In this document: positions 43,120 to 46,054 of the stretch, piece by piece
Numbering within the stretch: position 1 is the stretch's first letter
Layout of the letters: every line of letters starts with the position of its first letter
From: an uncultured Bacteroidales bacterium
Lineage (GTDB): Bacteria > Bacteroidota > Bacteroidia > Bacteroidales > Paludibacteraceae
Direction of reading: 5' to 3'
Assembly (NCBI GenBank): GCA_902800525.1
Contig: CADCEV010000004.1
Location: forward strand, 183,263 to 247,262
Length of the DNA stretch: 64,000 nucleotides
The notes under the pieces: model-generated
What the model was told of the DNA's origin: nothing
The model's input: only the letters and a program-made list of their open reading frames with translations
The model's database searches: none
Made by a program: the position numbers and the translations under genes

Positions 43120-44065
43120 TTATCTTTGTACTCGACCATTCGCATTACCACCTGCAAGGCTCAGAACCTCATCCTCAGAAACGAGGTTGTAGTCGCCGTT
43201 GATGGTGTGCTTCAGGGCCGAAGCAGCTACTGCGAACTCAAGCGCTGCACCTTGGTTATCCGGGTATTTGAGCATACCGTGGATCAGACCGCCGGAGAAG
43301 CTGTCACCACCACCCACGCGGTCGATGATCGGGTTGATCTCGTAACGCTTGCTCTGGTAGAACTCCTTGCCGTTGTAGATCATCGCCTTCCAGCCGTTGA
43401 AAGTAGCGCTGAAACTCTCGCGAAGCGTCGAAACAACATACTTGAAGCCGAACTCTTTCATCATCTGCTCGAAGATGCCCTTGTAGCCCTCAGCGTTGGT
43501 CTCGCCGCCTTCTCGGACGCATGATCGAGATAGCTTTCTCGCTGGTCCACAGTTTCTTACGGAAGTTCAGGTCAACCGATACAGTTACGCCGTGACGTTT
43601 TGCAGCCTCGCAAGCGAGTTTGGTGATCTCAGCAGCCTTGTCCGAGATAGCCGGAGTGATACCGCTCCAGTGGAACCATGCAGCACCTTCCATGATCTTG
43701 TCGAAGTCAAAATCCTTCGGATCAGCCTCAGCAATAGCGCTGTGTGCACGGTCGTAGATCACTTTCGACGGACGCATAGAAGCACCTGTCTCGCAGTAAT
43801 ACAGACCCACGCGGTCGCCGCCACGAACGATATAATCGTCCTTCACGCCATAACGACGCAACGAGTTAACGGCAATCTGACCGATCTCATGTTTCGGCAG
43901 TTTGGTTACCAGATAAGCCTCGTGACCATAGTTAGCGCACGAAATAGCTACGTTAGCCTCACCACCACCGGGGATGATACGGAAGTGATCAGATTGTACA
44001 AAACGGTCTTGTCCTTCAGGACTCAGGCGGAGCATAATCTCGCCCAATGTAATAATTTTAGCCAT
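43120..44065 (-). pseudogene. kdgK: 2-keto-3-deoxygluconate kinase (PfkB), interrupted by deletion/frameshift
   Basis: The N-terminal part (ATG at 44065, MAKIITLGEIMLRLSPEG, with GGGEANVAISCANYG and SVDLNFRKKLW) runs to MRP at about 43514, then enters a wrong frame and stops at 43490. The C-terminal part resumes in another frame at about 43506 (GETNAEGYKGIFEQMM) and runs to 43120, including the catalytic DRVGGGDSFSGGL. Compared with the family about 80 bases between the two halves are missing, so the fault is a deletion that also shifts frame. The kinase should phosphorylate KDG for Eda. As it stands the hexuronate route is broken, unless this is an assembly error. Confidence 0.85.
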
Positions 44066-44212
44066 AGGTTAAATGAATTAAATTGGTTAATATTGTTGTT
44101 AATTATTTGTTCTTGTTCTGTTTTATTGTTTTATTTGTTTGTGTATATTTGTTCTGCTTTTGTTTGGTTTCTTTATTTGTATTGTTTATATTTGTTATTT
44201 CCTTTTTTGTCC
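44066..44212 (-). other. A-rich, almost G-free leader upstream of kdgK
   Basis: On the minus strand this stretch is dominated by AACAAATA-like words with very few G, consistent with a long unstructured leader of the kdgK transcript. No clear TAnnTTTG promoter is seen. Confidence 0.45.
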
Positions 44213-44245
44213 GCGATGTTCTGTGCCCGGCACCTCCGTTGCCGG
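44213..44245 (+). repeat. REP-like hairpin element, copy a
   Basis: Leader GCGATGTTCTGTGC followed by a six-base stem (CCGGCA 44227-44232, TGCCGG 44240-44245) and loop CCTCCGT. Identical to copy c. Confidence 0.85.
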
Positions 44246-44256
44246 AATCCCCTCCC

Positions 44257-44290
44257 GCAATGTCCTGTGCCCGCGAGTTCCGCGAGCGGG
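44257..44290 (+). repeat. REP-like hairpin element, copy b
   Basis: The leader GCAATGTCCTGTGC is followed by CCGCGAGTTCC and GCGAGCGGG. The leader matches copies a, c and d; the hairpin differs and is shared with the remote copy at 25257. Confidence 0.8.
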
Positions 44291-44314
44291 TATTCCTTTC
44301 TCTCTACCCTTCCA

Positions 44315-45541
44315 TCAGCGATGTTCTGTGCCCGGCACCTCCGTTGCCGGGGTTTCTTCCCCGCATATCCTCTCCGCGATAGCATTGAGTGCCAGGAATC
44401 GGTATCGTAGCGTCTCGTGCGGTATATTTCCCGCTTTTGCTACCACCTCGGCCTCTATCTCTGCCTGCTCATACAGTTCCTTCTCCGGCTCCAACAGCAG
44501 CAGTTTCCCTGCCGCGCAAGCCTCGAAATACACCCCTTGCGGCTTAAAATACTTGTAGTTCGGATCCTCCGGTTTCGGGAATCCCCTCTCCAAAAGTACC
44601 ACTATCGGATGTCCTGCCTCTCGTACCGCCCGGCATATCTGCTTCTCTCCTTCGGAGATAGCCGCCGAAACAAAGACCATCCCTTTCGCCGCTTCATCCA
44701 AACAATCCGCTTTCTTGGCATCTATCTCTGCCTGGTGTAACTTCCGCGAGCATTGAATCACCGCTTTTTGCGGGTAGTCTGCAAGGAAGATGTTCCCCAT
44801 CGCCGTAAAGCTCATCCCTGCTATTTGCAGATGTTGCCGTATTTTGAACAGCTCCGGATTTGCCCGTTTGAGTGCCAACCGCCTCGGATTATCCTTTATA
44901 TAATGTATCAGCGCATCCAGCTGCCCTTTGTGAAACAATATCCGGTCGTGATACCCTTCTGCCCATAGGCCTGTCCTTGTCTTCGTTTCCTCGCCCCTTT
45001 CGTTCTCTCTTTCATCCTCCTTTTCGTTCTCTCTTTCATCCCTTCCTCTCTCCGCCGAACAAAGGTCGGCGGCACATGACATCGTTGTTGGTATCCCGTT
45101 TATATCCATGTCCATGTCTATGCCCATCTCCTTCTCCTCGCGATGTCCTGTGCTCGGCACCTCTGATGCCGAGAGTATCCGCCCATAAGCGCGATTTGTC
45201 CCTGTTTTGTACCCCCGGACTACTTTCCCTAAATGCACCGGCAGTGCCTCCTCCACAAACAGCAGCAGGTGCAAATGGTCGGGCATGATCTGCCTGCATA
45301 GGATGCGTATCTGCGGATATATCTCCGTTATATGCTCTGTCTCCTCCAATACGGCTCGTCCGGTCTCTGTTACGACAGCACGCACACCGCTCTCATCTTC
45401 CTCTATCGTACAAAGCAGCGGCTGTCTGTCACGAACAACGAGAGTGAGCATATATATCCCTCGTCCTTTGTAATCCCATCCCTCGCATCTCCGTTGCATA
45501 GAATGACTTACCTCGTTATATGTGTGACCGTCCTCTGCCAC
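44315..45541 (-). CDS. REP-associated tyrosine transposase (RAYT) with extra C-terminal Rossmann-like domain
   Basis: 408 residues. The Y1/HUH nuclease domain begins at GRGIYMLTLVVRDRQPLL (27-43). The metal site is MPDHLHLLLF (86-95, His89 and His91) and the nucleophile is most likely Tyr214 in LIHYIKDNPRRL. A linker of about 70 residues (121-190), rich in Glu, Arg and Asp, separates these; relatives have a few residues there. Residues 124-134 and 398-408 are translations of REP-like hairpins d and c. Residues about 250-395 form a second domain (GMVFVSAAISEGEKQICRAV, GHPIVVLLERGFP, CAAGKLLLL) resembling DprA-like Rossmann folds. RAYTs cut and join single-stranded REP hairpins. The four elements in and around the gene support that role. 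Confidence 0.85.
   Translation of the reverse strand: MAEDGHTYNEVSHSMQRRCEGWDYKGRGIYMLTLVVRDRQPLLCTIEEDESGVRAVVTETGRAVLEETEHITEIYPQIRILCRQIMPDHLHLLLFVEEALPVHLGKVVRGYKTGTNRAYGRILSASEVPSTGHREEKEMGIDMDMDINGIPTTMSCAADLCSAERGRDERENEKEDERENERGEETKTRTGLWAEGYHDRILFHKGQLDALIHYIKDNPRRLALKRANPELFKIRQHLQIAGMSFTAMGNIFLADYPQKAVIQCSRKLHQAEIDAKKADCLDEAAKGMVFVSAAISEGEKQICRAVREAGHPIVVLLERGFPKPEDPNYKYFKPQGVYFEACAAGKLLLLEPEKELYEQAEIEAEVVAKAGNIPHETLRYRFLALNAIAERICGEETPATEVPGTEHR
44318..44350 (+). repeat. REP-like hairpin element, copy c
   Basis: Same 33 bases as copy a. It encodes, on the opposite strand, the last 11 residues of the RAYT; the RAYT stop codon (44315-44317) directly adjoins the element's first base. 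Confidence 0.85.
44997..45053. repeat. Imperfect tandem repeat TTTCGTTCTCTCTTTCATCC in the RAYT linker
   Basis: Two near-identical copies of about 25 bases encode the repeating RDERENEKEDERENER part of the RAYT linker. Confidence 0.7.
45140..45173 (+). repeat. REP-like hairpin element, copy d, inside the RAYT gene
   Basis: Leader GCGATGTCCTGTG, then a seven-base stem (CTCGGCA, TGCCGAG) with loop CCTCTGA. It encodes SASEVPSTGHR (residues 124-134 of the RAYT) on the opposite strand. The stem shows compensated changes relative to copies a and c. Confidence 0.85.
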
Positions 45542-45605
45542 TTTGCGTCTGTATTTATATTATCGGTCTCTCCTTCTTCCATCCACCTGTCTTCCATTAG
45601 TCTCC

Positions 45606-45649
45606 ATCGGGTGCTCATCGGATGCTCATCGGATGCTCATCGGGTGCTC
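45606..45649. repeat. Four tandem 11-base repeats upstream of the RAYT
   Basis: Four exact-length units ATCGGRTGCTC (second and third have A, first and fourth G), 65 bases upstream of the RAYT start. The array lies in the 165-base gap between the RAYT and the upstream small gene. The arrangement is like an iteron or operator array. Confidence 0.85.
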
Positions 45650-45706
45650 ACTATGACGTCGCCCTGACATCTACGGGAGAATACCTTGTTTTTCACCTTT
45701 CACCTT

Positions 45707-46054
45707 TCAATTATCACCTTTCAATTCGATACTCAGCTCATGCTTGATATAATCGTACAGCCGTCCTTGTATAGGCTTGTTATATTTCCTTGCCTTCCGC
45801 AAAGCCTCCTCATATCGTGCCTGCCATTCCGCTTTGCGCACCGGATCATGCATGATTGCCTTCGTCTCCGCCATCAGCTCCGCAAAGGCCTTCGCCGTCG
45901 GGTGTTCCGCCTTTGCCTTTTTCACCCTCTTGCTCAACTCCGGCTTCGCGCACACTGCCCCGTATTCCCCATTCCCGGGAATCCGCCGTGCATAGTGCCT
46001 TTGATCCACATTCCCCTGCAAGCTATCCACAATATTCACCCACTTCGCTTTCAT
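45707..46054 (-). CDS. Small unknown protein upstream of the RAYT
   Basis: 115 residues, basic and mostly helical. It begins MKAKWVNIVDSLQGNVDQRHYARR, has a central GNGEYGAVCAKPELSKR strand, and ends with a helix pattern (DPVRKAEWQARYEEALRKARKYNKPIQGRLYDYIKHEL). The layout resembles small Bacteroidales proteins I have seen near mobile genes, but I cannot name a family. It is on the same strand as the RAYT and may be its partner. Confidence 0.65.
   Translation of the reverse strand: MKAKWVNIVDSLQGNVDQRHYARRIPGNGEYGAVCAKPELSKRVKKAKAEHPTAKAFAELMAETKAIMHDPVRKAEWQARYEEALRKARKYNKPIQGRLYDYIKHELSIELKGDN

Follow-up and report, generated by a model that had tools for sequence, protein, structure and literature searches.

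A RAYT-like gene with in-frame hairpin repeats and a predicted DprA-like C-terminal domain in a Bacteroidales genome

The DNA analysed here, a stretch of 64 kb referred to below as the window, comes from an uncultured Bacteroidales bacterium and carries on its minus strand a RAYT-like gene with small hairpin elements in it and at its end (Table 1). Downstream of this gene, a pfkB-family sugar kinase is spread over two open reading frames (43120-43464 and 43490-44065; window 43120-44065, minus strand), an apparent frameshift that is either real or comes from the assembly, with a Pfam match on the first frame only. Upstream of the RAYT gene there is an 11-bp tandem repeat (window 45605-45648), and like units are found upstream of the relative L179.

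Table 1. Positions of the RAYT-like gene, its predicted protein regions and the hairpin elements in the window
Feature	Position	Strand	Remarks
RAYT-like CDS	44315..45541	-	408 aa; GTG start, later ATG possible; stop codon 44315-44317
HUH motif MPDHLH, residues 86-91	45269..45286	-	H89 and H91 invariant in 77/77 rows
Predicted catalytic Tyr214 codon, Y-x-x-x-NP	44900..44902	-	Y214, N218 and P219 invariant in 77/77 rows; helix 207-227 in the model
Linker, mostly disordered, about residues 127-195	44957..45163	-	Junction of HUH half and Tyr half; low pLDDT; holds element e and most of d
Predicted DprA-like Rossmann domain, C-terminal, residues 233-394	44360..44845	-	AlphaFold of the domain alone, pLDDT 91.3; Foldseek ShosA/DprA
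Element a, type 1 leader and hairpin	44213..44246	+	Downstream of RAYT gene; covariance model E 6.2e-10, training row
Element b, type 2 hairpin	44257..44290	+	44 bp after a; exact leader; covariance model E 0.03
Element c, type 1	44318..44351	+	Overlaps last RAYT codons, in frame; covariance model E 1.2e-10, training row
Element d, type 1	45140..45173	+	In gene, at linker start, in frame; covariance model E 1.3e-9, training row
Element e	45052..45085	-	In linker, faces d inverted; 7-bp stem, 7-nt loop; covariance model E 0.08

The reading frame, the Y1/HUH motif (PDHLHLLLF) and the candidate catalytic Tyr214 are all as the initial annotation had described them. In an alignment of the window protein with 76 of 80 named loci (L072, L088, L091 and L125 were omitted by hand), the residues H89, H91, Y214, N218, P219 and R221 are invariant in all 77 rows. 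The named loci are the best 80 of at least 427 relatives confirmed in a genome scan, and 79 of these 80 are labelled Bacteroidota, mostly Bacteroidales; the remaining one is labelled Ruminococcus flavefaciens, which is probably a binning error. Relatives of the window protein are present in Prevotella lacticifex (L127) and Hallella mizrahii (L088). The lengths of the best 80 proteins, with starts that we chose ourselves, range from 322 to 491 aa. An AlphaFold model of the window protein has a mean pLDDT of 84.5, with 298 of the 408 residues at 90 or above and mostly low confidence at about residues 127-195. Searching with this model, Foldseek found IS200/IS605 transposases as the best matches (best E 1.5e-5), DprA and ShosA among the others, and also 4ER8, a REP-associated transposase in complex with its REP hairpin (rmsd 2.5); the predicted fold of the Y1 core matches both the IS200/IS605 TnpA and 4ER8. 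With curated family models, the window protein stays under the cut-off (NCBIfam REP_Tyr_transpos, 45.5 bits for a cut-off of 80; Pfam Y1_Tnp, 16.1 bits for a cut-off of 23), and all seven RAYT members of its own genome match REP_Tyr_transpos at E<=1. By its motif and predicted fold, the window protein is a RAYT-like Y1/HUH enzyme.

The initial annotation had overlooked a C-terminal domain, which the AlphaFold and Foldseek results place with DprA and ShosA. The 14 best PDB matches of this domain are all ShosA or DprA (probability 1.00, TMq 0.46-0.51) with E-values from 4.6e-4 to 4.0e-3, one of them below 0.001, and the next match is at E 0.08. Sequence identity to these 14 proteins is 10-17%. 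A profile of 74 C-terminal domains (the window and 73 of the 80 loci, omitting L068, L073 and L076 as well as the four named above) gave DprA as the top three matches among PDB sequences, with weak E-values of 0.18-0.2. The Pfam family DNA_processg_A was matched by two of the 74 domains (best E 0.0039) and the PADLOC model PsyrA, weakly, by two of the 74 (best 1.2e-4). The same profile matched (E 3.8e-9) a stand-alone DprA-like relative of the RAYT tail, L255 (1498-1965, plus strand), which scores against DNA_processg_A with E 7.4e-5 and 22.5 bits, the cut-off being 29.6. In the tail, SxGE stands where DprA has its GID-type motif. Arg266 is kept in 71 of the 74 domains and aligns with the first Arg of the DprA GTRR motif; by our own numbering it would correspond to Arg 52 of H. 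pylori DprA, a residue described as needed for ssDNA binding (PMC4489622).

In a survey of the phylum, RAYT matches were present in 98 of 296 genomes. Outside the genome of the window, the matches listed from this phylum sample, which took in two other genomes of the order, all end at or before position 213 of the 344 positions of the model, and therefore these RAYTs appear to be without the DprA-like domain. Within the order, the domain was found in 12 of 247 genomes with 24 matches, 22 of them within frames of 326-453 aa and the remaining pair within shorter ones (156 and 73 aa); a pattern search found the HUH and NP motifs in 21 of the 22 longer frames, L248 being the exception. In a tree of the HUH core, a single branch (SH-aLRT 100) splits 53 fused RAYTs, made up of 46 hand-picked loci and the seven of the own genome, from 26 short RAYTs, the latter taken from 29 loci of which three gave no motif.

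Some of the fused genes have type I restriction genes as neighbours. The RAYT-DprA gene sits between hsdS and hsdR in L038 (contig C18 of the own genome, also L268), L121, L250 and L254, and between hsdM and hsdR in L252. Using phmmer with queries from L038, L252 and L254, we found type I restriction matches near RAYT-DprA genes at 3 of 80 named, 1 of 6 own-genome and 5 of 47 genus or order loci, counting in the weaker cases L062, L126 and L191. Pfam supports the restriction genes at L121 and HsdM at L252. In the HUH-core tree L038 groups with L250, and L252 with L254, the two pairs standing apart.

Within the 64-kb window there are exactly four occurrences of the leader GCRATGTYCTGTG, each on the plus strand (at 44213, 44257, 44318 and 45140) and each followed by a GC-rich hairpin, so that elements a to d run on the strand opposite to the RAYT gene. 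The initial annotation had described four elements in one orientation with a shared leader and hairpin. The orientation holds for a to d, but a weaker fifth copy, e, lies on the minus strand, and the leader is indeed common to all four, but b has a different stem-loop and represents a second type. Element e is identical in the nearest relative, L051, its evidence being weaker than that for a, c and d; element b is absent from L051, and an altered form of it is present in L179. On the gene strand, the in-frame elements c and d are read in the same frame as EVPGTEHR and EVPSTGHR. We do not find this shared reading phase compelling, since phase is necessarily preserved between tandem copies and not every frame is free of stops. 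No Rfam family matched at E<=0.1 in the window from 43900 to 45900.

When folded singly, the hairpins are modestly more stable than their shuffles (z from -1.4 to -2.2), so that the argument for them is based on their repetition and covariation. In an ungapped alignment of seven genome copies, 98.0% of the stem cells are paired. The covariation score of the stems was 0.381 compared with 0.087 in shuffles, and none of 500 shuffles scored as high, the structure having been read from the same seven sequences; a deliberately wrong structure, used as control, scored 0. Two pairs had both sides changed and there were three further pair types, neither count standing above the shuffles (385/500 and 223/500 respectively). 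The paired change between a/c and d that had been pointed out initially, C-G versus T-A, is correct.

A covariance model built from the seven copies, with which 150 of 481 candidates were scored, identified in the genome of the window (G000; 2.39 Mb, 33 contigs, 92.7% complete) at least 13 copies with E<1e-4, distributed over eight contigs (C3, C4, C5, C11, C13, C18, C19 and C24). Seven of the 13 are the training rows and six had not been used in building the model; three lie at the RAYT gene (a, c and d) and ten elsewhere. Judged by eye from open reading frames only, several of the dispersed copies lie between genes, and one dimer is in frame in a BT4734-like gene. Type-2 or degenerate hairpins follow 43-45 bp behind four of the listed copies and, by eye, behind a fifth. 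The leader by itself, searched with up to two mismatches, was found at 81 places compared with 35 for the reversed control, and a hairpin was seen by eye at 8 of 30 places inspected. The family initially proposed from the gene itself extends beyond it. As in REPs, a short palindrome occurs several times close to a RAYT gene and is also scattered through the genome, but the copy number of 13 at E<1e-4 (150/481 candidates scored) is low and not that of a high-copy repeat; published REP families are described as often having 20-100 units, some having thousands and some fewer (PMC3733652).

At L138, L139, L140 and L141 (own genome, contigs C24, C18, C19 and C13) the dispersed copies are set in mosaics with further small palindromes, which by eye resemble the composite BIME arrangements of REPs. 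Carriage by a plasmid or phage was considered and set aside, as there was no match at E 1e-10 and 1e-5 in collections that may omit records of or near this genome.

The genome of the window has seven full-length RAYT members including the one described here, with which the remaining six share 30-44% identity. The initial annotation, which dealt with a single hairpin family, had overlooked that different families are found at other paralogues. Palindromes of CCGAATCNGATTCGG are common to L032 and L038, where they are translated as PESDSG-like peptides in the linker and the tail; with at most one mismatch there are 10 such sites in the genome (6 exact and 4 with a single mismatch). Half of the 10 lie in the two RAYT genes, and the reversed control gave 0. 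The palindrome TCCGAGCATGAGCTCGGA of L036 has 3 sites at up to three mismatches, all in its own RAYT gene, with 1 for the reversed control, and in L031 another repeated hairpin is present within the RAYT gene and behind it. No hairpin family was seen at the RAYT loci L033 and L037 when the seven own paralogues were inspected.

A 74-nt direct repeat (564-637 and 1863-1936, 99% identical) lies on either side of the RAYT gene of L037, and shorter repeats similar to it flank those of L031 and L033. This repeat may be the joint of a duplication or a shared promoter-like sequence.

Across the 80 named loci, the density of hairpins near RAYTs is 4.8/kb versus 2.3/kb. Pairs of hairpins that share a leader were found in 16 of 80 RAYT windows, in 2 of 219 length-matched flank windows from the same contigs and in 1 of 80 shuffles; a relaxed form of the test gave 23 of 80 RAYT windows versus 5 of 219 flank windows, leaving 57 of the 80 RAYT loci with no such pair even then. 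Leaders were then compared between loci, 39 of 121 loci having yielded one. Leader similarity was 6.07 in the 79 pairs with a RAYT core identity of 45-85% and 5.11 in 658 less similar pairs, and none of 2000 permutations gave as strong a link between leader and RAYT similarity.

Many leaders, not all, have a GTYY tag 4-5 nt ahead of the stem. GT[TC][CT] placed 9 or 8 nt ahead of the stem is present in 30 of 70 repeated hairpins, in 28 of 250 single hairpins near RAYTs and in 45 of 564 flank hairpins. The corresponding p of 9e-13 is inflated because the count was made after the tag had been spotted in these 80 loci, and hairpins at one locus are not independent observations (12/31 loci). In 36 further loci, 17 of them with repeated hairpins, the tag is present in 14 of 49 hairpins, at 4 loci, and in the six own-genome loci in 2 of 6 hairpins, at 1 locus (p 0.08). 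The GTYY tag is not universal, and by eye other leaders are CGTCNATT-like or TGCAYTT-like. The GT[AG]G stem foot is at background level, with 2 of 70 repeated hairpins in the 80 loci and 9 of 564 flank hairpins, and the window copies are without it, which agrees with the initial remark that leader and spacing differ from those of GTAG-tagged REPs.

Among 41 genomes, 8 including the own genome (7 of 40 others) have matches to the covariance model at E<=0.01, all within the same genus group, and none of the 16 genomes outside that group has a match at this threshold. In G007, where the RAYT is 54% identical, there are 22 model matches, among them a 42-bp tandem array of six next to the RAYT gene in which the leader is kept and the stem-loop is changed. 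In G024 the RAYT is 52% identical and there is no hairpin model match, and G021, a genome 63% complete, has nine hairpin matches and no RAYT hit at E<=1e-30. These results suggest a loose link between the presence of RAYT and of hairpin across genomes. The hairpins are not limited to the few copies at the gene, since further ones are found in the genome and in relatives, and the picture across genomes is mixed.

The nearest relative, L051, is 96% identical to the window RAYT in the full alignment. Its linker is longer by a 90-nt unit that contains another d-type copy, and its elements a and c share one loop change. Between the window and L051, dN/dS is 0.028 in the HUH half, 0.069 in the DprA-like domain and 0.5 in the linker; between the window and L179 it is 0.157 in the HUH half and 0.06 in the DprA-like domain. 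The dS of the linker between the window and L051 is 0.05 over 66 codons, compared with 0.23-0.28 elsewhere in the gene. Because dS in the linker is low while dN/dS is 0.5, the letters of the linker DNA seem to be constrained or homogenised, with the protein being freer. Hairpins are also present in another gene. The type-1/type-2 dimer mentioned above is in frame in a BT4734-like/DUF3987 gene on C13 (L269) and absent from L278, L270, L272 and L273, homologous genes on C25 and C26 have palindromes of the CCGAATCNGATTCGG family, and in G007 one model match lies inside the BT4734-like/DUF3987 homologue at a different place. The variable linker of these genes (L269, L278 and C26) appears to receive hairpins of more than one family. 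The insertion joints were not sharp.

Taken together, we think it probable that the window system is a REP/RAYT-type pair (REPtron) of a Bacteroidales lineage which mobilises its own hairpins as in the mechanism proposed here. What is observed is kinship in sequence, catalytic residues, a predicted fold, repeats, their dispersal, differences between copies, co-variation of leader and RAYT, and low dN/dS; binding, cleavage and mobilisation by this enzyme, and the role of the DprA-like tail, are what we infer. The Y1/HUH enzyme would recognise single-stranded hairpins of its own family by leader and stem-loop, and Tyr214 would cut the hairpin DNA at the HUH metal site. Over evolutionary time the enzyme would copy or move hairpins into gene ends, into disordered linkers, both its own and those of other genes, and into intergenic DNA. 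The DprA-like Rossmann tail would probably add single-strand binding or recruit recombination factors.

It is unlikely that the hairpins are instead passive repeats, or repeats moved by some other transposase, which gather where the RAYT linker and gene ends tolerate insertions. Such repeats would fit with the variable linker of the BT4734-like gene, which hosts hairpins of two families, and with the nine copies of G021 in a genome with no detected RAYT, but leader similarity tracks RAYT similarity, RAYT windows are enriched over flank windows of the same contigs, and the TCCGAGCATGAGCTCGGA family is found only in its own RAYT gene. That last family, having in-gene copies only, could also be taken to mean that the hairpins have a cis effect on the RAYT gene, through termination, mRNA folding or autoregulation by the protein, the dispersed copies being by-products. 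Copies in the gene and at its end in several paralogues, the roughly five-fold lower dS of the linker, and element c, which is terminator-like on the plus strand, are all compatible with this. However, terminator-like sites are at the level of chance (2 compared with a shuffle mean of 1.7) and lie on the strand opposite to the gene, most of the copies at E<1e-4 (10/13) lie away from it, and Rfam gave no match at E<=0.1, and we regard action in cis as quite improbable. That the gene is an ordinary IS200/IS605 insertion sequence or a remnant of one is hardly credible. Although IS200/IS605 transposases rank first among the PDB matches by E-value, the window protein has Y-x-x-x-NP as in class 2 and not Y-x-x-x-Q, following the rule given in PMC6006769, the six other full-length copies in the genome are diverged rather than near-identical, and all seven members match REP_Tyr_transpos, the window protein below its cut-off.

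Going further than the REP/RAYT-type pair that we favour, perhaps these genes form a Bacteroidales clade of ssDNA editors, in which a RAYT and a DprA-like domain were fused once, clade-tagged in-frame hairpins serve as a signal for self-recognition or self-limitation, and some members were recruited into type I restriction operons, handling incoming ssDNA rather than merely spreading repeats. We offer this as speculation and think it doubtful. Much of the work on REPs and RAYTs has been done with Proteobacteria and GTAG-tagged repeats, and here we have a deep Bacteroidales lineage with different leaders. Because the leaders change with the enzyme, there are many natural enzyme/repeat pairs with which to ask what a RAYT reads, and the DprA-like fusion, which would tie RAYTs to recombination or defence, offers a handle on what they do for their hosts.

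Compared with E. coli TnpA_REP and its REP/BIME elements, the window system is alike in the fold match to 4ER8 and in having repeat families specific to an enzyme, and differs in tag, spacing, copy number and domain make-up. With DprA and ShosA it shares the predicted fold of the C-terminal domain and Arg266; the low sequence identity and the fusion to an HUH enzyme set it apart. The CGTC-tagged REPs and the Rickettsia palindromic elements are likewise small tagged palindromes, some of them in frame, and some of the leaders here contain CGTC. As described by Di Nocera et al. 2013 (PMC3733652), the CGTC-tagged REPs have stems of 8-9 bp that nearly always begin with A/T pairs, a short tail and no transposase reported as associated, and we rejected an identity with them.

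The closest comparisons are with two subclasses of TnpA_REP/RAYT as they are described by Quentin et al. 2018 (PMC6006769). Subclass 2.4 occurs in Bacteroidetes and has in-frame REPs within the RAYT gene, as a rule located between the HUH and Tyr motifs, with a GT[AG]G foot, an HUH motif of the form NH[IFV]H, an insertion between beta3 and alphaC, a median length of 194 aa and no tail domain listed. The window lineage is similar in being from Bacteroidetes and in having in-frame hairpins inside the RAYT gene, whereas it has DHLH, an insertion placed after alphaC by our mapping on the predicted model, proteins of 322-491 aa, and a predicted DprA-like tail. Subclass 2.6, mostly from Bacteroidetes, has atypical, GTAG-free hairpins next to the gene and at other places in the genome, an insertion between alphaC and beta4, a median length of 179 aa, the motifs NH[LIV]H and YIH[QN]NP, and no large C-terminal domain in its description. 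It resembles the window lineage in its phylum, its hairpins without GTAG and the place of its insertion and is unlike it in length, in the DHLH motif and in the large C-terminal domain predicted here. Compared in this way, by description, the window lineage could be a derived relative of subclass 2.6. The initial suggestion of an undescribed REP class is supported in that leader and spacing differ from those of GTAG-tagged REPs; hairpins in frame within RAYT genes, and atypical ones without GTAG at the RAYTs of Bacteroidetes, have already been published (PMC6006769). The words DprA, Rossmann and Prevotella are absent from the main text of that paper, and in the open-access literature, which leaves most subscription papers outside, a search for DprA with RAYT or TnpA_REP gave nothing relevant by title and counts, so the fusion of a DprA-like domain to a RAYT is apparently unreported. 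Because subclasses 2.4 and 2.6 are described without a large C-terminal domain and the combination was not found in that literature, we regard the window system as a REP/RAYT variant with an apparently unreported DprA-like fusion, in which the functions of both enzyme and tail are predicted.
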